Shown: positions 37,882 through 64,000 of the stretch, piece after piece
Position numbering within the stretch: the stretch's first letter is position 1
Layout of the letters: every line of letters starts with the position of its first letter
DNA from: Conus ventricosus
Lineage: Eukaryota > Mollusca > Gastropoda > Neogastropoda > Conidae
Assembly: GCA_018398815.1 (NCBI GenBank)
Contig: CM031602.1
Span: 102,100,511-102,164,510 of the forward strand
DNA: 64,000 nucleotides
Direction: 5' to 3'
Made by a program: the position numbers and the translations under genes
Notes under the pieces: generated by a model
Told to the model about the DNA's origin: nothing
The model's database searches: none
Seen by the model: only the letters and a program-made list of their open reading frames with translations

Positions 37882-37888
37882 TATTATT

Positions 37889-37908
37889 TGGGGGCTTGTC
37901 CCAGGGAT
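37889..37908 (+). promoter_or_regulatory. Primer-binding site of element D, tRNA-Pro-like
   Basis: TGGGGGCTTGTCC followed by CAGGGAT resembles the proline tRNA site seen in element A (TGGGGGCTCGTCC), with one difference in the first 13 bases. The second copy of this locus has the same sequence at about 41089. Confidence 0.65.
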
Positions 37909-38004
37909 CTTTCGATCTGAAAGTACCTGGAGGTTCAGTGACGCAGGCAAGAATTGTAGACCACAACCTTCACCTTTTTTCTAGTGGGAGGTTGGACGGT
38001 ACTA

Positions 38005-40800: not shown

Positions 40801-41202
40801 ACAGGGGATTATTTTCCATAATGTTGATCATTCTTTTTGTTAATTCATTCAAGGGACAAACGACTCGATTGAACAACAAAACGACTATTCACTGCGTCAT
40901 CATCATCGTTACTCAACTTTATTAAATTCGTTGTTGTTATCAAGATCAAACCTCTTGTTCCATCTTCAGAAAGAAAGTGAAGGGAGTGACGAAAGTTTGA
41001 CTTTCCTACAATTGTCTATCGTTCTTGTCTGAGCATTCAACCATCATTTATGAATGGGGCTTTATTAAAAAACGTCACATATTATTTGGGGGCTTGTCCC
41101 AGGGATCTTTCGATCTGAAAGTACCTGGAGGTTCAGTGACGCAGGCAAGAATTGTAGACCACAACCTTCACCTTTTTTCTAGTGGGAGGTTGGACGGTAC
41201 TA

Positions 41203-42808: not shown

Positions 42809-43583
42809 CAGTTTTATGTGTTGACCATCTAAACATATAATTAGAAAATTTTGAATTTCACATTTTGTTCATGAATCATTTGTATTTATTTCGTTAGTCG
42901 CGACGCTATTTGTTTATTATTTCCCTTATTTTAGAAAAGGCCTCAACACAGTACAGAGAAAGTAACGACCTTGGCCAATTCACGTCATATTACCAGGACA
43001 TGTCTTAACTTCTTATTAGATCTATTTCACTAGATCTATTGTGAAGAAAAAGATTTTATTCAAGTTGCCAGGTTAGTGCAATCTTGACGTTACTGCATTG
43101 GAGTGGTGCAGTGGTATTGTATTTTGTGTCGATTGGGACACAAGGATTAGAGTAAAGTATTGATACTCTAAAGCGGCATTTCAATGAAAGCTATTAACTT
43201 GGGTGCGAGGTGGCACCACAGGCTATTTTGCGGGCGCCGTATTGCTTTGGTGAATCGTACGTACGATATCGGAGATATATTTTTCAGCGCGTCCGTTCGT
43301 CAGTTAGTATGTTCGTTGGGTAGCTGAGTGTACAAACCTTGGTTTGGTTTGTTGACGTGTTTTGAATACACGTGTTCGGGGTTTCGAGTGTAGTTATCCC
43401 CATTTTTACTGCACAGGGTTGTGTAGTGTGTTTCCCAGTCGTGGTGGAAGTTGTTTCTTTACACTCTGTGTTCTGAAACGTGTGTCAATATCATTTGGCA
43501 TTAATGCGTGATGGTGTTCAGTTTCCGCGTTATTTGTATTTATCAAATTTGTTAAGACAACAGGACTTGCAGTGGTAGGGGAC

Positions 43584-44640
43584 ATGCCAACAAGAAAGTC
43601 CCGACGTCAGGCATCTGCCACTGACGAAAGTCAGTCTCAGCAGATTCAAACTAGTGCGCAATTCCAACAATGGAAAGCCGAGGCACTAGAGCTAGGCCTA
43701 AAAGGAGCAGAACTCGCTCTTTACATCAAGGAAAAGGAAGAACGTGAAATGGAATGAGAACGAGAGAAGGAACGTGAGGAACGAGAACGAGAGCAACAAG
43801 AAAGAAAGGACGAAAGAGATCGAGAAGAAGAGAGGCCGAGAGACAATTACAGCTAGAGTTAGCAAGAATAAAAGCAGGAAGCAGTGATGATGCTCAACCA
43901 AGTGCTAGCGCCCAACGCATTCTACAGACTGTAGTGTCGGCTAAGGTCAAGTTACCTTACTTAGAAGACAAGGACGACCTTGAGTCATATTTGACTCAAT
44001 TTGAAAAGGTGGCAGTCATCAACGGATGGAACGAGGAGGAATGGGGTGCCAGGTTAGCTCCATTACTCAAGGGCAGAGCTAGGGAAGCGTATGTGAAACT
44101 ACCCGCGGCAGAGTCGGCGGACTATAACCTCATCAAACAGGCACTTTTGCATAAGTATCAACTGAGTGCTGGTCATTACAGACAGAAATTTCGTACAGCA
44201 CACAAAGAGAGCACTGACACGTCATTGTCATTATGGGATCGTTTGTCTATGTGGCTAGAGAGTGGTTGAATTTGTCCAACAGGACAGAAAAGATTTGAAA
44301 GAAATGTTAATCCTGGAGAAATTTTTGGAAGCATTGCCTTTTGATCAGGCAAGATTTGTCAGAGAGAGAGATCCACAGACTGGAAAGGAAGCTGTTGCAG
44401 CAGCAGATCTGTTTGAACAGACGAGACTTGTGGAGAGGAGTTACCATGATAGCAAACCTGATCATCGTAGGTATGGTCATGGAAATGACAACAGAGGTCC
44501 ACACAAGGAAGCTCGGAAAGAGGACAAGCCGAGGGGATCTGTACCTGACAAGGGAGCAACGACAGGAGAAATTATCGCTTTCAGATAAAGTGTTACCAAT
44601 GTGGAGGACGACATCACCAGAGGGATTGCACGCAAAAGAG
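43584..44640 (+). pseudogene. gag: gag of element D, full-length copy
   Basis: The N-terminus is the same as the first copy, with the in-frame TGA at 43755-43757. The gag core follows from about 43934: AKVKLPYLEDKDDLESYLTQ, KGRAREAYVKLP, HKYQLSAGHYRQKFRTAHK, and after a frameshift near 44262 LEALPFDQARFVRERDP. The zinc knuckle KCYQCGGRHHQRDC lies at about 44588-44629, one residue short of the standard CCHC spacing. It has a coil plus helical core plus knuckle layout like element A. Frame breaks occur near 43828, 44262 and 44585. Confidence 0.85.
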
Positions 44641-46489: not shown

Positions 46490-47015
46490 TCCTTGAACAG
46501 ATGGGTTTTTGAGAGCAGAGCGGAAAGCAGAGTCAGTTTTGGCAGAGCGGATCGAAAGTGGGAGAGAGTTCCAAACGGAAGGGGCTGCAAAAATGAAGGA
46601 CGTTCACCATAGGTTTTTGTTGAAACGCGTGGCTTCCAGAGTGTGAGAGTGTCAGATGATGAGTGGGGTGATTCTTGCCAGTGTGTATATGCGAACCAGG
46701 TGAGAAGATAGACAGGGCCAGATCCATTGACGGCGCGAAAACACATGCATGCAATTTTGTATCTGATGCGTGCTGCTATGGGAGCCAGTGCAGAGTGTAA
46801 AGATTCGGGGTGATATGGTCTCTACGTGGAACCCTCAAGACCAGGCGTGCTGCAGTATTTTGTAATCTCTGAATTCGTTGTATAAGATCTTGTGGGCAAT
46901 TTACAAGGAGACAATTGCAATAATCCAGACGGGAGAGCACAAATGCTGAAACGAGAGTTTTTGTTGCCTCAATTGAGAGGAAATGGCGAATTGAGCTGAT
47001 ACGACGGATCACCAC
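46490..47015 (-). pseudogene. LINE in D: reverse transcriptase C-terminal part, copy 1
   Basis: The minus strand from 47015 reads MVIRRISSIRHFLSIEATKT, then VLSRLDYCNCLLVNCPQDLI and LHWLPIAARIRYK-like, the post-palm and thumb region common to CR1/L2/Jockey-type LINEs. The palm itself (the DD motif) is absent. It is cut by a frameshift near 46775. Confidence 0.8.
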
Positions 47016-48855
47016 TGAACACCAATGGGGTGCGCCACAGTCACTTGAGCGTCCAGATCTTTCCGAATTTTCTCAACCTTGGAACAAAAGAAGTCTGAAA
47101 ACATATTTGCCAATGCAGACAATGGATAGATAGTGGGAAGCTGATTACTTTTAGTCCTAGCACACAGAGTGTTGGTGATGTGATACAGTTCTTTGCTAGA
47201 CTTTGCCTCCGAAATACTGGTGATGTAGAATAAAGTCTTGGCTTTGTGAACAAGGAAAGTCACAAAATTCTTGGCTTTCTGATAGATCTGCTTGTGAACG
47301 GTGAGTCCTGTCAGTCTCCACTGCTGCTCTGCACATCTCCACTCGTGTTTTTGCCTGAAGCAGTTCATCGCCAAGGACACCAAACCACGGGGACGCCACC
47401 TTCCTCTCCATCACCCTGCGTCGAGACACAGGGGCATGCTTGTCCAGAACGTCCCGGAGGGCAGTGTTGTACTGGTCAGTGGTGCAGTTCTCAATGCTGC
47501 CCAGCTCCACCTGCAGATCGTCTCTCAGCGCTGCTCTGTCAATGGCACGGGTGTTGCGGACGTTGCGGAACACCGGCGCAGGGGAAGGGAGATCAATGTC
47601 GAAGGCAGACACCACACTAAAGTGGTCAGACTCCAAGGCGCACGTAGCCTCGGATGATCGGTGAACTCCATCAGAAGGCCGCACAATCACCAGATCTAGA
47701 GTGTGACCCCCCTTGTGAGTAGGGCCAGACACAGTCTGACTTAAATCATACATCGACAGGAGCTCTAAAAACCTGCATGCACTTCTGTCACGAAGGTCAT
47801 TCACATAAAAGTTGAAGTCACCCAATAAACACAAGTGACCACGGAGGATGTTACAGTGATCAAGAAGCACTGGAAGCTGGTAAAAAAACATCGCATCTGT
47901 CAACGTATACTTGTTGGCAGACGTGGCCCAGGGCGATACACACACATAAAGTGCAGTACACTATGCTGTGATGTCAGTGACACTTGTAGCAGTTCAAAAG
48001 TGGCATGATCGAAAGTAAATTTGTCTATGAAGGTAAGATGGGGAGCAAGTTTGTCTCTATAGATGACAGCGATACCACCGCCACCGCGCTTGCCGTAGGT
48101 ACGGGGGAGGGACTTGATGGAGTAACCACCAGGTGTGAGATCGGCACAGAGTGCCTCGTCACCCCGTGGTCTGAGCCACGTCTCCACAACAAACAACATA
48201 TCGAGGTCATTATCAACAATGAAAGTGTTCATCTCAGTTCTCTTTTCTTTGCATGTGGACCGACAGACTGTGCATTAAAAGATGCGATTTTGAGTCCATT
48301 CGGCGTGCGATCAGGAGAAGAGGGTGTGAGCGGAATGGAGATCAGATTGTTTGAATTCACAGTAGGCTTGGCGTGTTGTTTACATGTTGAGGGTTGGGCG
48401 TGATCAGGAGTGAGACAAAGGTAGGTTTGATCACGACTGGAGATGATCACTGGAATTGGCCTACCTCTCTGGAATCTCCGACGCCCCCCACGAAACGGTC
48501 GACGTTTCTTCTTTCTCGAACACGGAAACCAACTGTGCAGACTAAAACACCTAAGTGTGTCACACACAGTTGGGGCAAGTTCAGTGTGCACTTTCCTCAG
48601 TGACAGAAGCTGGTCTCTGCTGTATGTAACCCGAGCGGGCAGCGATGACACTGAAACACCTGGCTGCATAGCATGGACAGCACGTGCCGACTGCAAGCTG
48701 AATGGCCGCTCGCTCAACAGGGTCAATTGGTAGAAGAAAAACAAAAATGTCAGGTATAAGAACCGGGTCATAAATCCGTTGTCCATCGTCAAAAAGTGCC
48801 AAAAAAGACACCAAAATGACGGGCGTGTCATGACGAAAACGATGATGCCATTCAA
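47000..48855 (-). pseudogene. LINE in D: ORF2 N-terminal part with endonuclease, copy 1
   Basis: Same protein as 55411-53564, but broken into three frames by indels near 47345, 47925 and 48235. See that entry for domains. Confidence 0.8.
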
Positions 48856-48944
48856 TCACACAGCAGCACTCTAAATCTCTCACAAACACAGAATTGGTAA
48901 CAGAGCAGTTCCCTCGAGCACACAAGGCGAAGGGACGTAACTCT

Positions 48945-49946
48945 CAAGCTCGTGACAATCTAGACAAGGCTGCCGGACGTCAAGCGAAGCACTACAACAG
49001 GAAAACGAAAATGAGACATCTCATTCCTGGAAACAAAGTACTATGCTACTTCCACAGAAACACAACAAGCTCCAATTGACATGGAAAGGACCGTACACCA
49101 TTTCCAGAAGGGTGAATCCAGTCGATTACAAGATTGAGATCAACGGCAAGGAGAAGACATACCACATCAATCTCCTCAAGGAATACTTCGAAAGAGAAGG
49201 ATTGAAACAACAGGAGTACGTCGCAGTTGTTATGCAGGAGGAGGATCATGAAGAGTATTTGACTGATCATATACCACTCATACCTTTGAAGAGAACCGAG
49301 GACTCCAGCAATGTTGTGTATGGACCACAGCTATCCAAGGAACAGAAGACGGAGCTGGAAAACATTGTTCGTTGTCATGACAAAATCATCACGGATTTGC
49401 CAGGTGAAACCAATCTGGTTACCTGTGAGTTGAGACTGGCATCACAACAACCAGTGAAAGTACATCAGTACCCAGTGCCACATTCTCAGATAGAAACTGT
49501 TGAGAAGGAAGTCGATCAAATGCTAGCCATGGGAGTGATAGAACCAGCCATATCACCATACAATGCGCCCATTGTGTTAGTCAAGAAGAAAGACTCAACA
49601 GTCAGGTTCTGTATCGACTATAGGAGACTGAATCTTATGACAGAATTTGATGCAGAGCCACTACCAGACATCGAAACTATCTTTGCAAAGATCGGAAAAG
49701 CAAAATACTTTTCCAAAATTGATCTGTCAAAGGGATTTTGGCAGATTCAGATGAATGAGGAAGACAAGCCAAAGACAGCTTTCAGTACCCCAAGGGACAA
49801 TATCAATGGAAACGTATGCCCTTTGGCATGAGAAACGCAAGTGCCGTGTTCACGAGGATGATGAGGAAATTATTGAGTGACATAAAATCAAAAGATGTCC
49901 ACAACTTTATCGACGACATTTTGATCGCTTCCGAGACTTGGGAGGA
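48945..49946 (+). pseudogene. pol: pol of element D: integrase C-terminus and reverse transcriptase, copy 1
   Basis: Resumes the integrase after the LINE (DNLDKAAGRQAKHYNRKTK; LTWKGPYTISRRVNPVDYKI) and passes in one frame (49043-49831) into RT: CELRLASQQPVKVHQYPVPH, MLAMGVIEPAISPYNAPIVL, VRFCIDYRRLN and KIDLSKGFWQIQMNEEDKP. A missing C near 49790 shifts the frame; FIDDIL (49906-49917) is the catalytic palm motif. The RT is cut off at 49946 by the viral terminal hairpin. Integrase upstream of RT in a single frame is the key evidence for the unusual pol order. Confidence 0.9.
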
Positions 49947-50037
49947 AGAGAACTAATAAATATTCATTCTGGCTCACTTTGCCTCTCAACCCAGTTTCGG
50001 GGCAAAGTGAGCCAGAATAAATATTTATTAGTTCTCT
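49947..50037. repeat. Terminal hairpin of the virus-like element, copy 1
   Basis: Arms of 37 nt (49947-49983 and 50001-50037) match at 36 of 37 positions around a 17-nt loop. The arm starts AGAGAACTAATAAATATT and ends at the GGCTCACTTTGCC block. It marks the exact switch from the retrotransposon RT to viral sequence. Confidence 0.93.
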
Positions 50038-50077
50038 GACAAGTAAGACTTCAATAACCAAAAAAAATAACGATTAT

Positions 50078-50683
50078 CTACAAACAAACATACTGTGTAG
50101 GATTATCCGTTTTCAATACTAATTTACTAAACTTTTTAGATTTTAGTTTTTGCTTAATCCTGTGTTTTTCCTGATCATTCTCAATAACATCATTTTCACG
50201 CAAACATTCATCAAATGCGTCTCTGTCTTTCATGTGAAATAAACTACAGTCTTTAACTGTTCTCTAAAGTCTTTTAAAACCGAGTATATTTTTGACATAA
50301 AATCCACACACATTATCCCAGCATGTCTTCCACTAAAGGCTAGTTTTGACAAAGTTTTTCTTTTTTAACTATGTCTCTTTCTGCTGAACAGTCATCTGTA
50401 ATAAATAGCGTCTGCGTTCCCTCAAACAATATATAAAACTGTTCTAACCACTCACTCAGTTTATTGCAGGATCAACTAAAAATATGTCATCATCTGCCCA
50501 TATAAACCTTCTATCATAATATGCTTTGTTCCATTTAAGTGTTGGGCAGAAAATCACAATATAATCAAAATTATAGCGATAAACTGTTTGCAATGGTCGA
50601 GGATAAATATTGTTTTTCCACAACCAGTCTGCCCACAAATCAATGAACAATGAGGGGTTTTGTCATAAGTTTAACTGCTTCAT
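50078..50683 (-). pseudogene. Viral packaging ATPase, copy 1
   Basis: Duplicate of the gene at 56635-57243. In this copy the Walker B region reads FITDDC (about 50386-50406 on the plus strand) and the end runs open to the TAG stop, whereas the Walker A region is split by indels near 50600-50665. The other copy shows the opposite pattern. Confidence 0.75.
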
Positions 50684-50699
50684 AGTTTTATAACAGAAT

Positions 50700-51555
50700 T
50701 TAATCTAATCCAGTTATTGTTTTTATCATGCTCTCTGTCAAAACTTGTTCAGTATAATAAAATCCTATAAGGTCTAAATGTGTAAGATTCATCCAATTCA
50801 GTTCTGTAAGATTGTTTCTATTTAGACTAATATTGATTTTGTTGCTTGTTGTTATGACCTTAATATCCTCACCATTGTGAAGAATGACGACGGTAACTTT
50901 AAGTTTTTCAACGTCTAAGTTTTGCCAGCTAATTAGAATTCCTTTTAGAAGGACGTCACTAACGCCCACAACCCCATCCCTCTTTACATCTTTTAAGACA
51001 GAAATTTCAAATATCATTGTGTAACGTGTCTCCTACTTTCATTTGCGGAATGAACTGTAATTTTGTAGAAGCATCTTTCAAAACCGTTTCTCTTCTGTGG
51101 AGGATGTACTGTTTATTCCCATACGGCTTTATTTCAATCTCTTTCCGACTATTGTCATCTGGCATAAGACTTACATGTAAAGGACCTGAGTTGAATGCTT
51201 TCTGAAACTTTTTTGACGGCTAAAAAATGTAAATGGGCTTATGAATTCAAATTTTATGTCCCATTCTAAATATGGTTCTAAGTGCCATTTGCTGTCAGGT
51301 TTTCGAACTATTTTATATTCATACTGCCCAGCATTATTTGCTTCAACATTGTGCAGTTGCTCTAGTTTAGGAAACTTTTTGTTGTCGCCAACCTCTTTGC
51401 GCTTAAATCACCATCTTTAGTGTACTCAAAAACCATACAAAGTGCCTATCTCACCATTCTGTTCAAAGTCCAAACGTCTGCAAGGTCTTTTAATTCTAAA
51501 GTTATACACCTCACAGGCGCTAATGTAACTCCAGGTTCTTCTGGTCCACGCGACA
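50700..51555 (-). pseudogene. Uncharacterised viral protein, copy 1
   Basis: Duplicate of 57260-58111, with several additional one-base indels, for example near 51020 and 51115. Confidence 0.6.
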
Positions 51556-51574
51556 TTATTTTTAGTACAATTTA

Positions 51575-52259
51575 TTATTTTATTTCCAAAACAATGTGTA
51601 GGTTATCACATTTTACGACTTTCCCCGTTTTGTCTGTGATCTTTTATTAATGATCCGACCCTCCCACAAGCTAATTTTTTAAACTGTAAATTAGGAATTG
51701 TATAATTTCATAATCGCAATATGCAGCTTTCCCTGATGGAAGAGCTCTTAAAACAGTTGAGGGCCTTCCATCATATAAGTTTTCATCAGTGCTTAGCTCA
51801 TCCAAATGAACATAGAGTAAGGAATGTAATGCAAGATTGAGCGGACTTTCCCCTCATAAGTAGTTTTGTTGGGTGTAACTCTAAATCTATGATTGTCAGC
51901 TGCAAAGCCTAACATTTTAGCTAGCTCTTCATCAAAATAGTAACCTGCTTCTTCTTCAGGCTTGAATGTTAACATTGTTTTCAGATTTGCATTGTTAAGT
52001 TTGAGAGTAATGTCAAAGTTACTCATTGCTTCTTTTAGTGAGCAAAACCCGTAATAACCATCAGGTATTGTTAACTGGCTAACTTTGGCGCCTGATTTGT
52101 CAACTTTTAGAATCTTATTATTCTTTTTGGATTTACTTATATTAAACCATACGACTTTGTAAAAAATTTCATGGAGCGCGACCATTTTGGTTCCGCAATC
52201 GTTCTCACAGCATGTTCTAAAAACGAAGGGCGGTCTTGAGTTGTTATTGTTACAAACAT
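51575..52259 (-). pseudogene. Probable penton/minor capsid protein, copy 1
   Basis: Duplicate of 58129-58815. This copy stays open from 52185 to 51793, through VALHEIFYKVVWFNISKSKK, where the other copy is broken. Confidence 0.6.
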
Positions 52260-52278
52260 TTTTTTAAACAAAATAAAA

Positions 52279-53160
52279 ATGAGTGCATTTAAATATACTG
52301 ATGCAAAATATTCTGTTGGGTCGCACTACAATCTTAAAATATAACAACTGACGCCCTTGACATTTCTGTGACTCAGTTGTCGCCTTTCAAGTAAAGGTGA
52401 GTACTCCATTGGACAAATATCTTAACCCCCCTATTAAAAAGACTACATCCCAAAAATGTGGTTCAGTCATCCGATGCAGTTTTATCAGAACCAGTTAAAC
52501 TTTGCTGTGTTTTGTGCAACAACTGGGTGGGAGTGTCGTATGCTGATCATCTAAATCATCCTGATCCTTTGGTGAGGTCAGTGTATAGATTTCATTTTTA
52601 TTACACCTTCAACGTATTTTGACTGAACTGCAAGCGCCATTACCAAATGACAAACCGTTTAATCCATTCAGCAACCGAATAGACATGAAGGCTTTTGAAA
52701 GGATCTGTAACGAATTCAATATTAATGTTAAGGAAGACTTTAGACAAAAGTTGGATCTTAATCATGGCTTAGGCACCCTTATTTTTGGGGCGTGCACAAA
52801 AGTATAACTATGGCTGGAATCCTCCTTACACATCTTTCTCTTCAGGCACAGGTGTTCACCTCGGGTTCATAGAGCAAGAGCATAAAACAGCATGGACAAC
52901 ATTTATCTTAGACACTTCTAAGAGCCTAACTAGAGCGGGAATAGAACGAATAAACGACTCTATTCGTACTTACGTTTGGTGTTTGCTAGGTTCGCAAGCA
53001 CAAACGAGATCGAGCATAACTGATCCTCTACTGGTTTTGATGCACAAAAACAATACTTAGCAAATTTAGAGGACGCCATTAATTCTACAGTTGATTTACC
53101 TTCAAGTATTAAAAGGTACCAAGATGTTTTACAATACGCAAGATCAAAAGTATAGACTTA
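52279..53160 (+). pseudogene. Conserved unknown viral protein, copy 1 (breaks off)
   Basis: Duplicate of the first 880 bp of the gene at 58836. Several indels are present, and the match fades out in noisy sequence at 53160-53235, where the LINE copy begins. Confidence 0.6.
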
Positions 53161-53234
53161 AATGCTGATTGGCGCTGGTATTATACTGTGCCTTCGTTCA
53201 AACTACGCTTCCAGTGGAGGTGTCGATGAACTCA

Positions 53235-53570
53235 GTGTGTATATGCGAACCAGGTGAGAAGATAGACAGGGCCAGATCCATTGACGGCGCGAAAACACAT
53301 GCATGCAATTTTGTATCTGATGCGTGCTGCTATGGGGAGCCAGTGCAGAGTGTAAAGATTCGGGGTGATATGGTCTCTACGTGGAACCCTCAAGACCAGG
53401 CGTGCTGCAGTATTTTGTAATCTCTGAATTCGTTGTATAAGATCTTGTGGGCAATTTACAAGGAGACAATTGCAATAATCCAGACGGGAGAGCACAAATG
53501 CTGAAACGAGAGTTTTTGTTGCCTCAATTGAGAGGAAATGGCGAATTGAGCTGATACGACGGATCACCAC
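53235..53570 (-). pseudogene. LINE ORF2 RT thumb fragment, copy 2
   Basis: MVIRRISSIRHFLSIEATKT to VNGSGPVYLLTW, open for 112 residues and then cut by the duplication join. It follows the deletion junction directly. Confidence 0.8.
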
Positions 53571-55411
53571 TGAACACCAATGGGGTGCGCCACAGTCACT
53601 TGAGCGTCCAGATCTTTCCGAATTTTCTCAACCTTGGAACAAAAGAAGTCTGAAAACATATTTGCCAATGCAGACAATGGATAGATAGTGGGAAGCTGAT
53701 TACTTTTAGTCCTAGCACACAGAGTGTTGGTGATGTGATACAGTTCTTTGCTAGACTTTGCCTCCGAAATACTGGTGATGTAGAATAAAGTCTTGGCTTT
53801 GTGAACAAGGAAAGTCACAAAATTCTTGGCTTTCTGATAGATCTGCTTGTGAACGGTGAGTCCTGTCAGTCTCCACTGCTGCTCTGCACATCTCCACTCG
53901 TGTTTTGCCTGAAGCAGTTCATCGCCAAGGACACCAAACCACGGGGACGCCACCTTCCTCTCCATCACCCTGCGTCGAGACACAGGGGCATGCTTGTCCA
54001 GAACGTCCCGGAGGGCAGTGTTGTACTGGTCAGTGGTGCAGTTCTCAATGCTGCCCAGCTCCACCTGCAGATCGTCTCTCAGCGCTGCTCTGTCAATGGC
54101 ACGGGTGTTGCGGACGTTGCGGAACACCGGCGCAGGGGAAGGGAGATCAATGTCGAAGGCAGACACCACACTAAAGTGGTCAGACTCCAAGGCGCACGTA
54201 GCCTCGGATGATCGGTGAACTCCATCAGAAGGCCGCACAATCACCAGATCTAGAGTGTGACCCCCCTTGTGAGTAGGGCCAGACACAGTCTGACTTAAAT
54301 CATACATCGACAGGAGCTCTAAAAACCTGCATGCACTTCTGTCACGAAGGTCATTCACATAAAAGTTGAAGTCACCCAATAAACACAAGTGACCACGGAG
54401 GATGTTACAGTGATCAAGAAGCACTGGAAGCTGGTAAAAAAACATCGCATCTGTCAACGTATACTTGTTGGCAGACGTGGGCCCAGGGCGATACACACAC
54501 ATAAAGTGCAGTACACTATGCTGTGATGTCAGTGACACTTGTAGCAGTTCAAAAGTGGCATGATCGAAAGTAAATTTGTCTATGAAGGTAAGATGGGGAG
54601 CAAGTTTGTCTCTATAGATGACAGCGATACCACCGCCACCGCGCTTGCCGTAGGTACGGGGGAGGGACTTGATGGAGTAACCACCAGGTGTGAGATCGGC
54701 ACAGAGTGCCTCGTCACCCCGTGGTCTGAGCCACGTCTCCACAACAAACAACATATCGAGGTCATTATCAACAATGAAAGTGTTCATCTCAGTTCTCTTT
54801 TCTTTGCATGTGGGACCGACAGACTGTGCATTAAAAGATGCGATTTTGAGTCCATTCGGCGTGCGATCAGGAGAAGAGGGTGTGAGCGGAATGGAGATCA
54901 GATTGTTTGAATTCACAGTAGGCTTGGCGTGTTGTTTACATGTTGAGGGTTGGGCGTGATCAGGAGTGAGACAAAGGTAGGTTTGATCACGACTGGAGAT
55001 GATCACTGGAATTGGCCTACCTCTCTGGAATCTCCGACGCCCCCCACGAAACGGTCGACGTTTCTTCTTTCTCGAACACGGAAACCAACTGTGCAGACTA
55101 AAACACCTAAGTGTGTCACACACAGTTGGGGCAAGTTCAGTGTGCACTTTCCTCAGTGACAGAAGCTGGTCTCTGCTGTATGTAACCCGAGCGGGCAGCG
55201 ATGACACTGAAACACCTGGCTGCATAGCATGGACAGCACGTGCCGACTGCAAGCTGAATGGCCGCTCGCTCAACAGGGTCAATTGGTAGAAGAAAAACAA
55301 AAATGTCAGGTATAAGAACCGGGTCATAAATCCGTTGTCCATCGTCAAAAAGTGCCAAAAAAGACACCAAAATGACGGGCGTGTCATGACGAAAACGATG
55401 ATGCCATTCAA
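53564..55411 (-). CDS. LINE ORF2 remnant: endonuclease domain joined to a deleted RT (615 aa)
   Basis: One open frame on the minus strand. Residues about 1-195 are a basic, low-complexity N-terminus with no recognised domain. Residues about 195-430 are an apurinic-like endonuclease: LKIASFNAQSVG, VVETWLRP, LCLLGDFNFYVND and the final CALESDHFSVVSAFDI, so the N, E, GDFN and SDH catalytic blocks are all visible. The linker to RT follows, and the frame ends at HPIGVQW, where the RT fingers and palm should start. A second frame from 53570 (112 aa) resumes in the RT thumb region. An internal deletion thus removed the polymerase core. It could still make an endonuclease but cannot reverse transcribe. 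Confidence 0.85.
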   Translation of the reverse strand: MNGIIVFVMTRPSFWCLFWHFLTMDNGFMTRFLYLTFLFFFYQLTLLSERPFSLQSARAVHAMQPGVSVSSLPARVTYSRDQLLSLRKVHTELAPTVCDTLRCFSLHSWFPCSRKKKRRPFRGGRRRFQRGRPIPVIISSRDQTYLCLTPDHAQPSTCKQHAKPTVNSNNLISIPLTPSSPDRTPNGLKIASFNAQSVGPTCKEKRTEMNTFIVDNDLDMLFVVETWLRPRGDEALCADLTPGGYSIKSLPRTYGKRGGGGIAVIYRDKLAPHLTFIDKFTFDHATFELLQVSLTSQHSVLHFMCVYRPGPTSANKYTLTDAMFFYQLPVLLDHCNILRGHLCLLGDFNFYVNDLRDRSACRFLELLSMYDLSQTVSGPTHKGGHTLDLVIVRPSDGVHRSSEATCALESDHFSVVSAFDIDLPSPAPVFRNVRNTRAIDRAALRDDLQVELGSIENCTTDQYNTALRDVLDKHAPVSRRRVMERKVASPWFGVLGDELLQAKHEWRCAEQQWRLTGLTVHKQIYQKAKNFVTFLVHKAKTLFYITSISEAKSSKELYHITNTLCARTKSNQLPTIYPLSALANMFSDFFCSKVEKIRKDLDAQVTVAHPIGVQW

Positions 55412-55500
55412 TCACACAGCAGCACTCTAAATCTCTCACAAACACAGAATTGGTAACAGAGCAGTTCCCTCGAGCACACAAGGCGAAGGGACGTAACTCT

Positions 55501-56513
55501 CAAGCTCGTGACAATCTAGACAAGGCTGCCGGACGTCAAGCGAAGCACTACAACAGGAAAACGAAAATGAGACATCTCATTCCTGGAAACAAAGTACTAG
55601 TGCTACTTCCACAGAAACACAACAAGCTCCAATTGACATGGAAAGGACCGTACACCATTTCCAGAAGGGTGAATCCAGTCGATTACAAGATTGAGATCAA
55701 CGGCAAGGAGAAGACATACCACATCAATCTCCTCAAGGAATACTTCGAAAGAGAAGGATTGAAACAACAGGAGTACGTCGCAGTTGTTATGCAGGAGGAG
55801 GATCATGAAGAGTATTTGACTGATCATATACCACTCATACCTTTGAAGAGAACCGAGGACTCCAGCAATGTTGTGTATGGACCACAGCTATCCAAGGAAC
55901 AGAAGACGGAGCTGGAAAACATTGTTCGTTGTCATGACAAAATCATCACGGATTTGCCAGGTGAAACCAATCTGGTTACCTGTGAGTTGAGACTGGCATC
56001 ACAACAACCAGTGAAAGTACATCAGTACCCAGTGCCACATTCTCAGATAGAAACTGTTGAGAAGGAAGTCGATCAAATGCTAGCCATGGGAGTGATAGAA
56101 CCAGCCATATCACCATACAATGCGCCCATTGTGTTAGTCAAGAAGAAAGACTCAACAGTCAGGTTCTGTATCGACTATAGGAGACTGAATCTTATGACAG
56201 AATTTGATGCAGAGCCACTACCAGACATCGAAACTATCTTTGCAAAGATCGGAAAAGCAAAATACTTTTCCAAAATTGATCTGTCAAAGGATTTTGGCAG
56301 ATTCAGATGAATGAGGAAGACAAGCCAAAGACAGCTTTCAGTACCCCCAAGGGACAATATCAATGGAAACGTATGCCCTTTGGCATGAGAAACGCAAGTG
56401 CCGTGTTCACGAGGATGATGAGGAAATTATTGAGTGACATAAAATCAAAAGATGTCCACAACTTTATCGACGACATTTTGATCGCTTCCGAGACTTGGGA
56501 GGAAGAGAACTAA
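55501..56513 (+). pseudogene. pol: pol of element D: integrase C-terminus and reverse transcriptase, copy 2
   Basis: A single frame (55450-56310) holds the integrase C-terminal region (NRKTKMRHLIPGNKVLVLLP, KGPYTISRRV) followed by RT with VRFCIDYRRLN. A missing G near 56289 shifts the frame. RT then continues at 56307 with KRMPFGMRNASAVFTRMMRK and the catalytic FIDDIL (56463-56474). The RT ends with SETWEEEN at the viral hairpin. Each homopolymer break here is intact in copy 1, and the reverse. RNase H and the 3' LTR would lie beyond the viral element, outside the readable sequence. Confidence 0.9.
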
Positions 56514-56594
56514 TAAATATTCATTCTGGCTCACTTTGCCTCTCAACCCAGTTTCGGGGCAAAGTGAGCCAGAATAAATATTTATTAGTTCTCT
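56504..56594. repeat. Terminal hairpin of the virus-like element, copy 2
   Basis: Identical to 49947-50037: 37-nt arms (56504-56540, 56558-56594), one mismatch, 17-nt loop that includes AACCCAGTTTC. The outer arm is AT-rich and the inner third is GGCTCACTTTGCC. It could be a viral telomere captured as a hairpin or two head-to-head terminal repeats. Confidence 0.93.
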
Positions 56595-56634
56595 GACAAG
56601 TAAGACTTCAATAACCAAAAAAAATAACGATTAT

Positions 56635-57243
56635 CTACAAACAAACATACTGTGTAGGATTATCCGTTTTCAATACTAATTTACTAAACTTTTTAGATTT
56701 AGTTTTTGCTTAATCCTGTGTTTTTCCTGATCATATCTCAATAACATCATTTTCACGCAAACATTCATCAAATGCGTCTCTGTCTTTCATGTGAAATAAA
56801 ACTACAGTCTTTAACTGTTCTCTAAAGTCTTTTAAAACCGAGTTATATTTTTGACATAAAATCCACACACATTATCCCAGCATGTCTTCCACTAAAGGCT
56901 AGTTTTGACAAAGTTTTTCTTTTTTAACTATGTCTCTTTCTGCTGAACAGTCATCTGTTAATAAATAGCGTCTGCGTTCCCTCAAACAATATATAAAAAC
57001 TGTTCTAACCACTCACTCATTTATTGCTAGGATCAACTAAAAATATGTCATCATCTGCCCATATAAACCTTCTAATAATATGCTTTGTTCCATTTAAGTG
57101 TTGGGCAGAAATCACAATATAATCAAAATTATAGCGATAAACTGTTTGCAATAGGTCGAGGATAAATATTGTTTTTCCACAACCAGTCTGCCCACAAATC
57201 AATGAACAATGAGGGTTTTTGTCATAAAGTTTAACTGCTTCAT
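56635..57243 (-). pseudogene. Viral DNA-packaging ATPase, A32/FtsK-HerA type (about 200 aa)
   Basis: This would pump genomic DNA into capsids using ATP. On the minus strand the ATG at 57243 is followed within about 60 bp by LICGQTGCGKTIFILDLL, a Walker A loop. FIWADDDIFLVDP follows. Walker B (FITDDC) is clean only in the duplicate copy at about 50386-50406. The C-terminal region contains an FSGRHAG-like block near 56885 and stops at TAG (56635). Length and motif order fit the compact ATPases of Polinton-like viruses. Frame breaks near 57225, 57005, 56955 and 56740 coincide with homopolymers and differ from those of the other copy. Confidence 0.75.
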
Positions 57244-57259
57244 AGTTTTATAACAGAAT

Positions 57260-58111
57260 TTAATCTAATCCAGTTATTGTTTTTATCATGCTCTCTGTCA
57301 AAACTTGTTCAGTATAATAAAATCCTATAAGGTCTAAATGTGTAAGATTCATCCAATTCAGTTCTGTAAGATTGTTTCTATTTAGACTAATATTGATTTT
57401 GTTGCTTGTTGTTATAGACCTTAATATCCTCACCATTGTGAAGAATGACGACGGTAACTTTAAGTTTTCAACGTCTAAGTTTTGCCAGCTAATTAGAATT
57501 CCTTTTAGAAGGACGTCACTAACGCCCACAACCCCATCCCTCTTTACATCTTTTAAGACAGAAATTTCAAATATCATTGTGAACGTGTCTCCTACTTTCA
57601 TTTGCGGAATGAACTGTAATTTTGTAGAAGCATCTTTCAAAACCGTTTCTCTTCTGTGGAGGATGTACTGTTTTCCCATACGGCTTTATTTCAATCTCTT
57701 TCCGACTATTGTCATCTGGCATAAGACTTACATGTAAAGGACCTGAGTTGAATGCTTTTCTGAAACTTTTTTGACGGCTAAAAAATGTAAATGGGCTTAT
57801 GAATTCAAATTTTATGTCCCATTCTAAATATGGTTCTAAGTGCCATTTGCTGTCAGGTTTTCGAACTATTTTATATTCATACTGCCCAGCATTATTGCTT
57901 CAACATTGTGCAGTTGCTCTAGTTTAGGAAACTTTTTGTTGTCGCCAACCTCTTTGCGCTTATAATCACCATCTTAGTGTACTCAAAACCATACAAAGTG
58001 CCTACTCACCATTCTGTTCAAAGTCCACAACGTCTGCAAGGTCTTTTAATTCTAAAGTTATACACCTCACAGGCGCTAATGAACTCCAGGTTCTTCTGGT
58101 CCACGCGACAT
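57260..58111 (-). pseudogene. Uncharacterised viral protein (about 280 aa)
   Basis: It starts at ATG 58111 (MSRGPEE) and ends TAA at 57260-57262. The longest clean part (57679-57260) begins MGKQYILHRRETVLKDASTK and is rich in beta-type alternation (FTMIFEISVLKDV, GVSDVLLKGILISW). I do not recognise the family. Its place between the probable penton gene and the ATPase, 17 bp from the latter, suggests a virion or assembly role. Frameshifts lie near 57670, 57900 and 58080. Confidence 0.55.
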
Positions 58112-58128
58112 ATTTTTAGTACAATTTA

Positions 58129-58815
58129 TTATTTTATTTCCAAAACAATGTGTAGGTTATCACATTTTACGACTTTCCCGTTTTGTCTGTTGATCTTTAT
58201 ATTAATGATCCGACCCTCCCACAAGCTAAATTTTTAAAATGTAAATTAGGGAATTGTATAATTTCATAATCGCAATATGCAGCTTTCCCTGATGGAAGAG
58301 CTCTTAAAACAGTTGAGGGCCTTCCATCATATAAGTTTTCATCAGTGCTTAGCTCATCCAAATGAACATAGAGTAAGGAATGTAATGCAAGATTGAGCGG
58401 ACTTTCCCCTCATAAGTAGTTTTGTTGGTGTAACTCTAAATCTATGATTGTCAGCTGCAAAGCCTAACATTTTAGCTAGCTCTTCATCAAAATAGTAACC
58501 TGCTTCTTCTTCAGGCTTGAATGTTAACATTGTTTTCAGATTTGCATTGTTAAGTTTGAGAGTAATGTCAAAGGTTACTCATTGCTTCTTTTAGTGAGCA
58601 AAACCCGTAATAACCATCAGGTATTGTTAACTGGCTAACTTTGGCGCCTGATTTGTCAACTTTTAGAATCTTATTATTCTTTTTGGATTTACTTATATTA
58701 ACCATACGACTTTGTAAAAAATTTCATGGAGCGCGACCATTTTGGTTCCGCAATCGTTCTCAACAGCATGTTCTAAAAACGAAGGGCGGTCTTGAGTTGT
58801 TATTGTTACAAACAT
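58129..58815 (-). pseudogene. Probable penton/minor capsid protein (about 230 aa)
   Basis: The minus strand starts MFVTITTQDRPSFLEHAVEN. A segment with VALHEIFYKVVW follows, then FGFAADNHRF-like and YIPYSMFIW blocks, ending HIVLEIK and TAA (58129). The layout (an early externally facing segment, a short ALHEI-type strand, and a final conserved strand near the C-terminus) resembles small single-jelly-roll penton proteins found in Polinton-like clusters of cnidarian and molluscan genomes. That assignment is from recollection of the family pattern, not a search. The gene is divergent from the plus-strand gene at 58836 with 20 bp between start codons. Frameshifts occur near 58705, 58575 and 58350. 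Confidence 0.5.
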
Positions 58816-58835
58816 TTTTTTAAAACAAAATAAAA
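58816..58835. promoter_or_regulatory. Bidirectional start region with capsid-gene motif
   Basis: The 20 bp between two divergent start codons lie within TTTTTATTTTGTTTTA (minus strand, 58836-58821) followed by six A and the ATG of the penton-like gene. The same motif at the same spacing precedes the major capsid gene at 61258. On the plus strand the motif reads TAAAACAAAATAAA, one base before the ATG at 58836. Confidence 0.7.
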
Positions 58836-60037
58836 ATGAGTGCATTTAAATATACTGATGCAAAATATTCTGTTGGGTCCGCACTACAATCTTAAAAATA
58901 TAACAACTGACGCCCTTGACATTTCTGTGACTCAGTTTGTCGCCTTCAAGTAAAGGTGAGTACTCCATTGGACAAATATCTTAACCCCCCTATTAAAAAA
59001 GACTACATCCCAAAAATGTGGTTCAGTCATCCGATGCAGTTTTATCAGAACCAGTTAAACTTTGCTGTGTTTTGTGCAACAACTGGGTGTGGAGTGTCGT
59101 ATGCTGATCATCTAAATCATCCTGATCCTTTGGTGAGGTCAGTGTATAGATTTCATTTTTATTACACCTTCAGACGTATTTTGACTGAACTGCAAGCGCC
59201 ATTACCAAATGACAAACCGTTTAATCCATTCAGCAACCGAATAGACATGAAGGCTTTTGAAAGGATCTGTAACGAATTCAATATTAATGTTAAGGAAGAC
59301 TTTAGACAAAAGTTGGATCTTAATCATGGCTTAGGCACCCCTTATTTTTGGGGCGTGCACAGAAAGTATAACTATGGCTGGAATCCTCCTTACACATCTT
59401 TCTCTTCAGGCACAGTGTTCACCTCGGGTTCATAGAGCAAGAGCATAAAACAGCATGGACAACATTTATCTTAGACACTTCTAAGAGCCTAACTAGAGCG
59501 GGAATAGAACGAATAAACGACTCTATTCGTACTTACGTTTGGTGTTTGCTAGGTTCGCAAGCACAAACGAGATCGAGCATAACTGATCCTTCTACTGGTT
59601 TTGATGCACAAAAACAATACTTAGCAAATTTAGAGGACGCCATTAATTCTACAGTTGATTTACCTTCAAGTATTAAAAGGTACCAAGATGTTTTACAATA
59701 CGCAAGATCAAAAGTAGACTTTGCTGTTGGCGCTGGTTTATACATGCTGCCTTCTGACCTCAGACTCCAGATAGGTACAATAATAAACTACAATAATGAA
59801 ATCCTTGTGGCAGGCAATGAACAGAAGGTCGGAAAAAACGACATAAATTCTGGGCCAGTAATATTACAAACAATAAAAAAACACGATGACCCCCCAAGAT
59901 TAAGTCATCCAATCCCGAGGTCCAAAGCCCAAAGACCGTTGAAGAAGTAAAAAAAAATATTGACCACGAATATGAAAAGACAGCGCTAGTTGTTGGATTT
60001 ACTAGCCTAGGATTACTCCTTCTTTATCTTACTAAAT
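58836..60037 (+). pseudogene. Conserved unknown viral protein with C-terminal membrane segment (about 390 aa)
   Basis: The start MSAFKYTDAKYSVGSALQS is soon frameshifted (58893). It resumes as VSTPLDKYLNPPIKKDYIPK and stays open to 59432 (QFYQNQLNFAVFCATTGCGV; DFRQKLDLNHGLGTPYFWGV). After another break it continues from 59435 with AGIERINDSIRTYVWCLLGS and VGAGLYMLPSDLRLQIG to about 59880. After a C-run (59890) one frame leads to a hydrophobic segment TALVVGFTSLGLLLLYLTK and TAG at 60037. I recall similar proteins beside Polinton-like capsid genes in cnidarians, but the function is unknown to me. The single C-terminal membrane segment suggests a virion-membrane or surface role (inference). Confidence 0.6.
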
Positions 60038-61219
60038 AGTAACCCAACTATTAGGAGAACTAATGCCCATAAGTGCTCGGCCATAAAGCCAACTACTTTG
60101 CTTGCAGTAGACAAAAGCCAGCTAACGATACTCCCTAATATACCAGGTAAAGAGTCTATAGCTTTACCAGCTAATTTTTTTAATAAACTCGCAAGATGAT
60201 CAAGCTGTTTTTTTTACCCATGATTTATCAGGCGGTGATGGAGGCGATAGCGGTGGAGGCACTGGACTTTGACCACAGCCGCCTGTAATAGCTAACACCA
60301 GTGTACTTATTGCAAATCCTAAGGCTGTTATAACGCTTGCTAATGTGACTCCCTGCTCTCTAAACAGCGTTCGTATTCGTTCTGCTAGCGTTGTGTTTTC
60401 ATATAAATTTGTTTGGATAGTTTCTCTTATTTCGCTCACTTGAGTTTGTAATTGTTCTCGGTTAGTATTCAACACTTCTAGTCTAGCTAATCTTTATATA
60501 TTAAGTTCTTGTAGTCTTTGTTCTATTCTTTCTTTAACATCACGCCCTAAGTTGGCGTCGTCAGCATCAGCAAGTTTTTCTTTTTCTTTTTCTATACGCT
60601 CCTTTTGTTCAGTCAGTTTTGCTAAATTGTTTAATAATTCCCCATTGATGGTTCTTAAAGCATGATCAAGAGCTAATAATTCTCTCTCAGGTAGCCGTGG
60701 TTCACGTATAGTTTTTAATGCTGCTTCTTCTTCAGCGGTTTCTGCTTCTATTGCTTGATTTATTTTGCCTGCTGTTTGACTTAAAACTTCAGGTTCCATG
60801 TTTTGCATTTGGTTATTTGTTGGGATTTCTTGTTGTATGTTTTGAAAGGAAGCAACTTCCTTCGGATCTAATTTTGGTTTAACAATGCCAAGGCGATTTC
60901 GATCTTCTGCCCTAAGTTTTTGTGTAAGTGTTGTCATGCCTTTAAACTTTGATTGGTCTCGTTTATGTGTAAGCTGAAAAAGTTGTTCTCGGTCGGGGCC
61001 GATTTTTACAAACAAATGGCCATCTTTTAGTTCAAAATCATTAGGGTCTATAACGTCGGGAGGTTTTATATCTAAACTTTTGTAAAATGCTCCGATCGCA
61101 CTTTCTGTTAATTCATGCCGCAATGAGAACGTTGAGCGATGTTCTACTAAAGGGGCCCTTTCATCCATGTCGTCTCCACGATCACGAACCTCATAATCTT
61201 CATCTTCAATGCCTGCCAT
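60036..61219 (-). pseudogene. Coiled-coil/transmembrane viral protein (about 395 aa)
   Basis: The minus-strand ATG at 61219 opens 241 codons without interruption: an acidic N-terminus (MAGIEDEDYEVRDRGDDMDE), a globular part (GHLFVKIGPDREQLFQLTHK) and a long coiled coil ending LQELNI. An in-frame TAA (60494-60496) follows. The same frame continues with RLARLEVLNTNREQLQTQVS, FREQGVTLASVITALGFAIS, a hydrophobic Gly-rich segment and a Pro-rich linker (to about 60215). After a T-run frameshift it ends in a second hydrophobic, Leu-rich block (LASLLKKLAGKAIDSLPG; HLWALVLLIVGLLFSK). Two membrane-active segments behind a coiled coil suggest a fusion, spike or internal scaffold function, unproven. The stop could be real or an error. 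Confidence 0.6.
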
Positions 61220-61257
61220 ATTTTTAAATAATTAACTTTTTATTTTGTTTTATAAAA
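61220..61257. promoter_or_regulatory. Divergent start region of the coiled-coil and major capsid genes
   Basis: 38 bp of AT-rich DNA. TTTTTATTTTGTTTTA at 61237-61252 is followed by TAAAA and the ATG of the capsid gene. This is identical, save one base, to the sequence before the penton-like gene. Confidence 0.7.
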
Positions 61258-61948
61258 ATGTCAGAAGTATATGGCTCAATTCTTAACCCGCTTAGAAAAC
61301 TGAAAGAGCCCCATGGCGTGAAGGGAAATAAACGGAATATTACTGTTCCAAATAATCCATCTACTATTGATGCAGATCAAATTCTTACTGTCAAATTTCC
61401 AGACCTAGGAGCGGATGAAGTGATTGTGCCAGGCTCTGCGCAACTTACTTTCAAAATAGAACTCGAATCAACAACAGATGAAAACAGAACAGTTGTCCAG
61501 AATCTGGGACGGGCAATCGTTAAGAAAATTTCTATAAAACTTGAGGGGCAAGAAATATTTTCTTTACACAATGCAGACATATTTTTAACCTATTGTGATC
61601 TATGGCTAACCGCGAATGAAAGGGATGATCTTGCGTTTCAAGGAATCGAAAATAATGAAGCACTAAAACTTAGAATAGGCGCTGCAGTTCCTGCAGATGC
61701 TAAAAGCAGCAAAAAGGCTTTAGCTGTAAGTTATGCGTATGGTAATCGCTTTCTATTCCCTTAGATTTTGAGTTGTTAAAAGCGCATGCTCCATACTTTC
61801 AAGGAGCATTAAAGACAGATTGTCATACGAATAACTTTAATGATACAAACGTGTATTATATCTGAAGACACCGCAGCAAGTCATTTCGACACGCGTTAGA
61901 GTTTGACGTTGTTAGCAACGCTAATTTAGCAAGGCAGATTGAGCAACA
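61258..61948 (+). pseudogene. Probable major capsid protein, double jelly-roll (truncated by gap)
   Basis: This would form the hexon-like trimers of an icosahedral capsid. The frame opens MSEVYGSILNPLRKLKEPHG and runs cleanly to 61764 with alternating beta-strand patterns (DQILTVKFPDLGADEVIVPG; AQLTFKIELES; LGRAIVKKISIKLEGQEIFS; YGNRFLFP). A one-base loss near 61758 causes the stop; DFELLKAHAPYFQGALK continues in another frame, then LEFDVVSNANLARQIEQ in a third up to the N gap. The strand pattern and the LGRAIVKK and DFELL blocks match my memory of capsid proteins in metazoan Polinton-like clusters. About 230 residues are visible, less than half of a typical double-jelly-roll protein. Confidence 0.6.
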
Positions 61949-62948
61949 NNNNNNNNNNNNNNNNNNNNNNNNNNNNNNNNNNNNNNNNNNNNNNNNNNNN
62001 NNNNNNNNNNNNNNNNNNNNNNNNNNNNNNNNNNNNNNNNNNNNNNNNNNNNNNNNNNNNNNNNNNNNNNNNNNNNNNNNNNNNNNNNNNNNNNNNNNNN
62101 NNNNNNNNNNNNNNNNNNNNNNNNNNNNNNNNNNNNNNNNNNNNNNNNNNNNNNNNNNNNNNNNNNNNNNNNNNNNNNNNNNNNNNNNNNNNNNNNNNNN
62201 NNNNNNNNNNNNNNNNNNNNNNNNNNNNNNNNNNNNNNNNNNNNNNNNNNNNNNNNNNNNNNNNNNNNNNNNNNNNNNNNNNNNNNNNNNNNNNNNNNNN
62301 NNNNNNNNNNNNNNNNNNNNNNNNNNNNNNNNNNNNNNNNNNNNNNNNNNNNNNNNNNNNNNNNNNNNNNNNNNNNNNNNNNNNNNNNNNNNNNNNNNNN
62401 NNNNNNNNNNNNNNNNNNNNNNNNNNNNNNNNNNNNNNNNNNNNNNNNNNNNNNNNNNNNNNNNNNNNNNNNNNNNNNNNNNNNNNNNNNNNNNNNNNNN
62501 NNNNNNNNNNNNNNNNNNNNNNNNNNNNNNNNNNNNNNNNNNNNNNNNNNNNNNNNNNNNNNNNNNNNNNNNNNNNNNNNNNNNNNNNNNNNNNNNNNNN
62601 NNNNNNNNNNNNNNNNNNNNNNNNNNNNNNNNNNNNNNNNNNNNNNNNNNNNNNNNNNNNNNNNNNNNNNNNNNNNNNNNNNNNNNNNNNNNNNNNNNNN
62701 NNNNNNNNNNNNNNNNNNNNNNNNNNNNNNNNNNNNNNNNNNNNNNNNNNNNNNNNNNNNNNNNNNNNNNNNNNNNNNNNNNNNNNNNNNNNNNNNNNNN
62801 NNNNNNNNNNNNNNNNNNNNNNNNNNNNNNNNNNNNNNNNNNNNNNNNNNNNNNNNNNNNNNNNNNNNNNNNNNNNNNNNNNNNNNNNNNNNNNNNNNNN
62901 NNNNNNNNNNNNNNNNNNNNNNNNNNNNNNNNNNNNNNNNNNNNNNNN
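61949..62948. other. Assembly gap, 1000 N
   Basis: Exactly 1000 N, inside the major capsid gene. Frames drawn through it are meaningless. Confidence 0.99.
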
Positions 62949-64000
62949 ACAGCATCTGTTCTTTTTACTGTTCTAGCATACTGTATGTTCTTTACAGTTC
63001 CAGCAGTTCTGTTAAATTACGTTCCAGCAGTCTAGTTGTTCGTTACTTTGTCCAGCAGTATGGTTAATTTACTGCTCCACAATCACATTCTTTAACTGTT
63101 CCAGCAGACTGTTTCTTTACTGTTCCAGCAGCTGTTCAGTAGTGTATCTCCAGCAGTTCCACTTTTGCACTGTTCCCCAGACTGTTCGTTACTGTTCCAG
63201 TAGACTTTCTTTACTGTTCCAGCAGTCTGTCTGTTCATTACTATTCCCGCAGGTCTGCCTGATTTTTTTTTACTGTTCAGCAGACTGTTCTATACGATTC
63301 CAGCAGATCGTTCCTTTACTGTTCCAGCAGTCAGTCCTGTTCTTTACATTCCAGCAGTCTGCTCTTTAACTGTTCATCAGTCTGTTCTTTACGTTCCACT
63401 GATCTGTTCTTTACTATTCCCAGCAGACTGTTCTCGTTCTTTACTGTTCCAGCAGACTGTTCTTTCCTGTTCCAGCAGTCTGTTTGTTCTTTACTGTTCC
63501 AGCAGTCCTGTTTCTTTAATGTTCCAGCAGTCTGTTCCCTTACTGTTGACCATCAGTCTGTTCTTTTACTGTTCCAGCAGACTGTTCTTTACTGTTCCAG
63601 CAGTCTGTTTGTTTTTTTACTGTTCCAGCAGTCTGTACGTTACTATTACAGCGTCTGTCTGTTCTTTACTATTCACAGTCCTCTTCTTACTGTTCCAGCA
63701 GTCTGTCTGTTCTTTACGTTCCAGCATTCTGTTCTTTACCGCTCCACCATACTGTTTCATTTAAACTGTATCCAGCATCTGTTCTTTAACTGTTCCAGCA
63801 GACTGTTCTTTAACTGTTCCAGCAGACTGTTCTTTACTGTTCCAGCAGTCTGTTCTTTACTTTTCTAGAGACTGTTTTTACTGTTACATCAGTCAGTTTC
63901 CTTTTTTTACTGCTCCAGCAGTCTGTATGTTCCTTTACTGTTCCAGCAGTCTTAATTACTGTTTCCAGCAGTCTGTTTGTTCTTTAACTGTTCCAGCAGA
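62949..64000 (+). repeat. 23-bp satellite (TTTACTGTTCCAGCAGTCTGTTC type)
   Basis: Same satellite and same orientation as 32600-33354, with TTTACTGTTCCAGCAGTCTG as the core of each unit, and equally noisy. It continues past the window. No viral or retrotransposon sequence is seen here. Confidence 0.92.

Follow-up and report, generated by a model that had tools for sequence, protein, structure and literature searches.

The window considered here is a stretch of 64,000 nucleotides (nt) from the genome of the cone snail Conus ventricosus (contig C8, 102100511-102164510). Toward its right end lies a virion block (56504-61948) in which six genes extend from a 91-nt terminal hairpin to a 1000-N assembly gap. 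The genes encode, in order, an A32-type packaging ATPase (minus strand), a protein of 287 amino acids (aa) (minus), a penton candidate (minus), a helical protein (plus), a 405-aa coiled-coil protein (minus) and a capsid protein (plus), and they show no likeness to the surrounding retroelements among the window frames examined. The genes of this copy are disrupted by frameshifts, and the capsid gene is ended by the gap. An original prediction, made from the letters of this DNA, had described six clustered genes unlike the nearby retroelements and had proposed an integrated DNA virus with a virion module; both descriptions agree with what is found, namely six virion-type genes starting from a terminal hairpin within the pol frame of a Gypsy element. 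From comparison with other copies in the same genome, we consider it highly likely that the window holds the left (virion) end of an integrating double-stranded DNA (dsDNA) virus of the Polinton/Maverick group, approximately 16 kb in length and inserted inside a Gypsy element. The group is known; what is new is the structure of the ends in this family, its 5-bp target duplications and its load in this genome.

The packaging ATPase (56635-57250, minus strand) survives in pieces, one at 57017-57247 with the Walker A motif GQTGCGKT and another at 56731-56871. Its 76-aa piece matches the Pfam profile PF04665 at 7.6e-5 and 22.7 bits, slightly below the cut-off of 22.8, and ATPases that are intact, from three further copies, match it with E values of 8.5e-17, 9.5e-16 and 1.2e-16 (58.4-61.9 bits, same cut-off). 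The same three proteins match HerA (PF01935) at only 0.06-0.18, and a HerA/FtsK-type ATPase, the grouping that the original prediction had named as telling against its A32 assignment, was rejected in favor of PF04665. Both ATPase motifs that it had listed are present, but the Walker B motif FITDDC sits in the first of two near-identical copies in the window (50340-50471, minus strand), and the duplicate of which it spoke is probably a product of the assembly.

The major capsid protein is represented by its N-terminal part (61258-61948, plus strand; frame 61258-61764). Of 397 candidates compared with this piece, 163 are homologues at E<=0.01; the best reaches 5.2e-58 and 63% identity, and lengths of about 425-435 aa are common among them. 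PF16903 (Capsid_N) is matched at E<=1 by 31 of 39 aligned homologues (best 3.4e-4), with bit scores of 16.6 and 13.3 in the two members for which they are given, below the cut-off of 24; these weak profile matches are no more than suggestive of a double-jelly-roll capsid. In PHROGs, the best family for the capsid group is phrog_28965, of unknown function (13 of the 39 members, best 0.0015). Two of the 120 relatives listed, P0045 and P0053, are filed under Candidatus Thiodiazotropha genomes. Since members of this taxon are symbionts of clams, these two sequences may come from clam DNA that was binned with the symbiont.

Neither a polymerase nor an integrase is seen at 55000-64000 of the window. 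Separate stretches beyond the capsid gene were taken from eight other copies in the same genome. In copy L013, the capsid gene is followed by frames of 849 aa and 322 aa and then by a 317-aa frame on the opposite strand. DNA polymerase B (PF03175) is matched there with 29.0 bits, and with 32.2 bits in copy L009 (cut-off 25.8); an rve integrase (PF00665) is matched in L013 with 41.2 bits against a cut-off of 32.6, one integrase frame having been scanned. Copies L009, L012 and L016 align with L013 throughout this replication half (84-92%). The alignment is partial for L010 (mostly N), L011 and L015, and there is none for L014. Because other copies carry PF03175 and PF00665 just past the capsid gene, the family is assigned to Polinton/Maverick, and this group is also a fit for the A32 ATPase, polymerase B and rve integrase, as well as for the length of the element and its inverted terminal repeats. 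The replication half that the original prediction had placed in or beyond the gap has thus been located past the capsid gene in other copies, while its view that the class was open, possibly a new lineage, gives way to the Polinton/Maverick assignment.

The element interrupts a plus-strand pol frame (55450-56503) whose open frames end in FIDDILIASETWEEE at the junction and which we take, from its reverse transcriptase motif, to be of Gypsy type. The left terminus is the hairpin at 56504-56594 (AGAGAAC...GTTCTCT), with 44-nt arms that are 91% complementary and fold at -36.6 kcal/mol under DNA parameters. When 12 other copies were aligned with the window, the alignment began at 56504 in four, at 56502 in one and elsewhere in the rest. 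GAGGA at 56499-56503 would be the left member of a 5-bp target duplication, as judged from two-ended copies elsewhere in the genome; the right junction of the window copy lies outside the window. All nine two-ended copies show an exact 5-bp duplication, and none shows one of 6 bp, the size typical of Polintons; because gene content names the group, we treat the 5-bp duplication as a departure inside Polinton/Maverick. Copy C24 has a hairpin at both ends, with 15,971 bp between the outer heptamer edges, so that the matching right-end hairpin anticipated by the original prediction does occur in the family. The inverted terminal repeats, which begin with the hairpin, measure 114-369 bp with 86-100% identity in the eight copies measured. 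By eye, an array of palindromic repeats (TGCTAAAAATAGCCGTTCATGTATAAACGGCTATTTATAGCA) was also seen shortly before the terminal hairpin of L013 (L013:7440-8001), along with a small cysteine-rich frame near its right end (L013:6800-7050).

To compare hairpins, left ends were taken from 40 copies and right ends from the first 20 of these. A regular expression (regex) combining AGAGAAC, GTTCTCT and a stem found hairpins in 27 of the 40 left ends and 8 of the 20 right ends; five further ends bring the final set to 40 hairpins, of which 30 come from left ends. Two copies were left out, L017 (an inverted piece, in which a hairpin is seen) and L025 (an imperfect hairpin). A chance palindrome was rejected as an explanation, as the hairpin recurs at the ends of other copies and is paired far above shuffled expectation.

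The stems combine sequence divergence with conserved pairing. Stem positions 1-7 (AGAGAAC) are nearly invariant, whereas positions 8-24 are only 54.6% identical between copies yet 94.7% paired to the partner arm in the hairpin set. Among the 30 left ends, 95.5% of the 510 cells at positions 8-24 are paired; shuffling partner arms among copies gave a mean of 55.2% and a maximum of 67.6%, with none of 10000 shuffles reaching the observed value, and sliding the partner arms by one to three positions gave 30-36%. Because the stem filter of the regex favors pairing, the count was repeated without any stem criterion. Of the 60 stretches in this unfiltered set, 20 had no inner junction, two had an inner junction but no outer heptamer (in one of these a hairpin is still visible, although its outer end deviates) and 38 had both. 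These 38 ends are 88.4% paired at positions 8-24, against a shuffled mean of 53.5% and maximum of 62.1%, and positions 8-11 are fully paired in 33 of them. Six of these ends fall below 80% pairing, five of which, read by eye, reflect one-base shifts or a bad anchor, while one is truly unpaired.

The pairing is not due to relatedness among the copies. Across 26 of the 30 left ends (325 pairs; those from the 40 copies and the window that had sufficient DNA on the inner side), the 330 bp adjoining the hairpin are 92.5% identical and the stems 54.5% identical, with no correlation between the two (r = -0.08). The left arms at positions 8-24 are distinct in 28 of 30 cases, and positions 8-11 reassort with positions 15-22, such that TACCAATC is joined to five different tetramers. 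Between the two ends of the same copy, the arms at positions 8-24 are identical in six of nine copies and 76-94% alike in the remaining three. In copy C22, which is flanked by an exact target duplication, one end carries AGGA and the other GTAA, each self-paired. It thus seems that a change in one arm is followed by a corresponding change in its partner, through a process that works on individual hairpins.

These patterns lead us to favor, tentatively and at somewhat less than even confidence, a model in which the hairpin persists as a structure while each arm is rewritten from its partner during replication. With more confidence than we place in this model, we expect that the polymerase replicates the linear DNA through protein priming at its ends, that the ATPase packages it and that the integrase inserts it. 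Reiteration of AGAG at the ends would fit the jumping-back that occurs in protein priming. Nascent or displaced strands may fold back at the ends during replication, and template switching inside the quasi-palindrome could bring the arms into agreement while leaving the loop in its orientation; new stems would thus arise already paired, and the terminal repeats would equalise the two ends of an element. Pairing alone does not account for the divergence of the stems beyond that of neighboring DNA, and either copying is mutagenic there or rare stem types are favored. The broader proposition that Polinton ends are kept through an arm-to-arm copied hairpin, its stem serving as a rapidly renewed, modular and replicon-specific end signature, is put forward with slightly more reserve. 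No report of hairpin ends in Polintons was found in the literature searched, the coverage of which was limited.

It should be noted that several observations weigh against these interpretations. With respect to the ends, the step in which one arm is corrected from the other is inferred rather than observed, and the hairpin C5:28179371 L is the truly unpaired member of the unfiltered set. Genome-wide, between fixed outer heptamers, matched arms predominate (AGGA...TCCT 1478, TATA...TATA 771) over mismatched ones (TATA...TCCT 31), but the table covers these three arm combinations, and the matched counts are inflated and are not independent events, because many copies inherit whole hairpins. The 31 TATA/TCCT hairpins show that unpaired combinations do occur. 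Ten of them were viewed over 80 nt: some combine arms of different types (e.g., C1:2087642), while others look paired except for the tetramer and a base or two (e.g., C5:12179495). With respect to the class of the element, the target duplications are 5 bp and not the 6 bp reported for Polintons, no maturation protease was detected by Pfam among the subset of frames scanned, and no polymerase half of the window copy was seen in the DNA past the gap, parts of which were inspected by eye. As for the capsid, the homologue P0004 gave no match by sequence to a solved structure in PDB, and the capsid profile returned a single chance-level dUTPase row against PDB sequences.

Five of the ten TATA/TCCT hairpins viewed share the core CCTCCACCAAGTTTTTGGGCG. 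Hairpins with this core may form a subfamily in which an unpaired stem is tolerated.

A first alternative to arm-to-arm rewriting is that the stem is a variable recognition tag, read by the polymerase and terminal protein or by the integrase, which is under diversifying selection and is swapped as whole cassettes that keep their self-pairing. The near-uniqueness of the left arms, the lack of correlation between stem type and body identity, the reassortment of tetramers with TACCAATC and the likeness of the arms at both ends of a copy are all consistent with such a tag. Cassette swapping alone, however, does not create new paired stems, and the two ends of C22 differ in the tetramer inside otherwise like stems; we regard this explanation as possible but rather unlikely.

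A second alternative would make the hairpin a true replicative telomere like those of parvoviruses or poxviruses, either covalently closed or replicated as a rolling hairpin. The terminal position of the hairpin, its self-complementarity, imperfect loop and co-varying arms are all in keeping with this explanation, which nonetheless appears improbable. Terminal resolution in a rolling hairpin would invert the loop, whereas the loop orientation of the 40 ends, viewed from outside the element, is fixed, with 35 the same, none flipped and five ambiguous to the regex (read by eye as the same). In addition, the polymerase of these elements is a type-B enzyme of the organellar/viral family, and the frames scanned with Pfam gave no match to a parvovirus-type nickase. 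Hence, a flip-flop rolling hairpin was rejected as the main model, although a hairpin telomere with a single fixed loop orientation may exist. A new capsid-bearing virus lineage lacking polymerase and integrase, which inspection of 55000-64000 alone might suggest, is hardly credible and was rejected, given that the window copy ends at the gap and both genes follow the capsid gene in other copies. Least credible of all is that the hairpins are sequencing or assembly artefacts: the window does contain two probable false duplications with many single-base differences between them, but the ends occur at separate sites flanked by exact target duplications (9/9), the imperfections in their arms are typical of the family and such hairpins number in the thousands.

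Polintons usually carry a protein-primed polymerase, an rve integrase, in most cases an ATPase and a protease, terminal repeats and 6-bp duplications, as summarized in portions of PMC12747079, and the vertebrate Mavericks described in sections of PMC8097293 measure 12.7-24.6 kb, with the 6-bp target duplication serving as a criterion for intact copies. Like the animal Polintons/Mavericks of those same sections, the snail element has a type-B polymerase, an rve integrase, an A32 ATPase and a capsid protein, a length of about 16 kb and inverted terminal repeats, and its ends begin with AG repeats. Unlike them, it makes 5-bp duplications, and its repeats open with a copy-specific, self-paired hairpin; the words "hairpin", "palindrom" and "stem-loop" each occur zero times in the main text of PMC8097293. 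The animal host and the pairing of a type-B polymerase with an rve integrase recall adintoviruses (as treated in part of PMC11071296), but the integrase chromodomain that defines them there was not found by Pfam: the one integrase scanned, L013:4184-5134, matches only PF00665 at E<=0.5, with no C-terminal chromodomain. For this reason we do not file the snail element as an adintovirus, a group further characterized by a hexon that BLASTP can recognize and by an OTU domain on the polymerase. It shares a capsid protein and an A32 ATPase with Polinton-like viruses, yet these mostly lack polymerase B and rve integrase, according to passages of PMC11071308, whereas the snail family has both. Extracts of PMC4061559 report that parvovirus ends form hairpins, that bidnaviruses carry a Polinton polymerase and that bidnavirus terminal repeats form no hairpins; the snail element differs from both groups in that its genes are of Polinton type and a flipped loop is not seen.

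A central role in the evolution of eukaryotic DNA viruses is ascribed to Polintons (in passages of PMC11071308). If the broader proposition above is correct, these polymerase-B Polintons would have a hairpin telomere mode, and a single animal genome would offer thousands of natural experiments on it. Ideas on how Polintons maintain their linear ends seem to draw chiefly on comparison with adenovirus and phage phi29. Because pairing is kept while the sequence is free to vary, and thousands of ends, two to a copy, are available, the mechanism can be tested in this family by sequence analysis alone.

The abundance of the family was estimated in a genome of 3,523,720,488 bases and 12,740 contigs. 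For the 405-aa gene, each of the 150 places scored gave a match, with 59-100% identity (25,839 first-look candidates), and the open frame around the gene reaches at least 395 aa in 48 of the 150. The 98 places scored for the capsid gene likewise all match, covering no fewer than 423 of 426 residues with E at most 4.1e-188 (41,244 first-look candidates). A 22-nt end junction has 3446 plus 3514 exact matches, or 6960 genome-wide, and its reversed control has none; by extrapolation this corresponds to about 3480 elements if each has two such ends, ignoring solo and variant ends. The first 100 junction sites on contig C1 form 99 neighboring pairs. Convergent orientation within 30 kb is seen in 16 of these (14.4-26.6 kb; nine span 14.4-15.7 kb), and a further four pairs within 30 kb are otherwise oriented. 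This animal genome carries a heavy and partly intact load of an integrated dsDNA virus. The main text of the host genome paper (PMC8152183) does not contain the word "Maverick", the one group name for which it was searched.

The remaining genes of the virion block are less readily named. The 287-aa protein (57260-58111, minus strand) is in pieces in the window and corresponds to a 287-aa frame in copy L018. The penton or minor capsid candidate (58129-58815, minus), also in pieces, forms unbroken frames of about 230 aa in copies L020 and L026; a piece of it from the first copy in the window (51793-52263) has one homologue among 11 candidates, the metagenomic protein P0124 (1.2e-29, 49% identity). 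A protein of about 370 aa (58836-59950, plus; pieces 58920-59435 and 59372-59950), judged by eye to be helical, likewise has longer unbroken frames in L020 and L026. None of these three proteins has a Pfam match above its cut-off. The 405-aa coiled-coil protein with a hydrophobic tail (60013-61219, minus) is split over three frames, which we regard as one protein because the homologues P0001-P0003 (402-408 aa) span all three by eye; its first 241 aa have three homologues among 974 candidates, the best at 1e-30. A PHROGs scan of ten window frames returned only P-loop families and weak rows, and no relatives were found in the viral contig collection (scans including a DNA pattern) or in the genome contig collection. 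Against seven other copies, part of the 405-aa gene (60401-60850) varies in identity from 0.70 to 0.97 and part of the capsid gene (61601-61900) from 0.81 to 0.91, while 60101-60400 is steadier (0.91-0.98). These variable parts possibly hint at a variable virion protein.

The window also bears the marks of its assembly. A tandem near-copy of 53233-59754 lies at 46679-53195, with its element part at 49947-53195. The two are 98.99% identical by blastn, with three mismatches and 63 gap positions, and their MAFFT alignment has 40 mismatch columns and 47 indel events, of which 43 are single-base and 30 fall in a same-base run. A second tandem pair, 37602-40801 and 40820-44004, also differs mostly by one-base gaps. 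Because the differences are mostly of this kind, we attribute the near-copy to assembly duplication and the frameshifts to uncorrected long-read errors. Both pairs are probably false duplications; a genuine recent tandem duplication is less likely, and the possibility of two real copies in the window was set aside on the same grounds. Sections of the Conus ventricosus genome paper (PMC8152183) describe PacBio CLR data, name the error rate as a limit and mention possible false exon redundancies. The 1000-N gap at 61949-62948 takes the place of the remaining capsid gene and possibly more. The DNA past it (62949-64000 and the next 4 kb, L097) includes a minisatellite. Units around TTCTTTACTGTTCCAGCAG lie beside both gaps of the window, at 62949-64000 and at 32556-35258, and in the latter region minisatellite of this type is present in both orientations.

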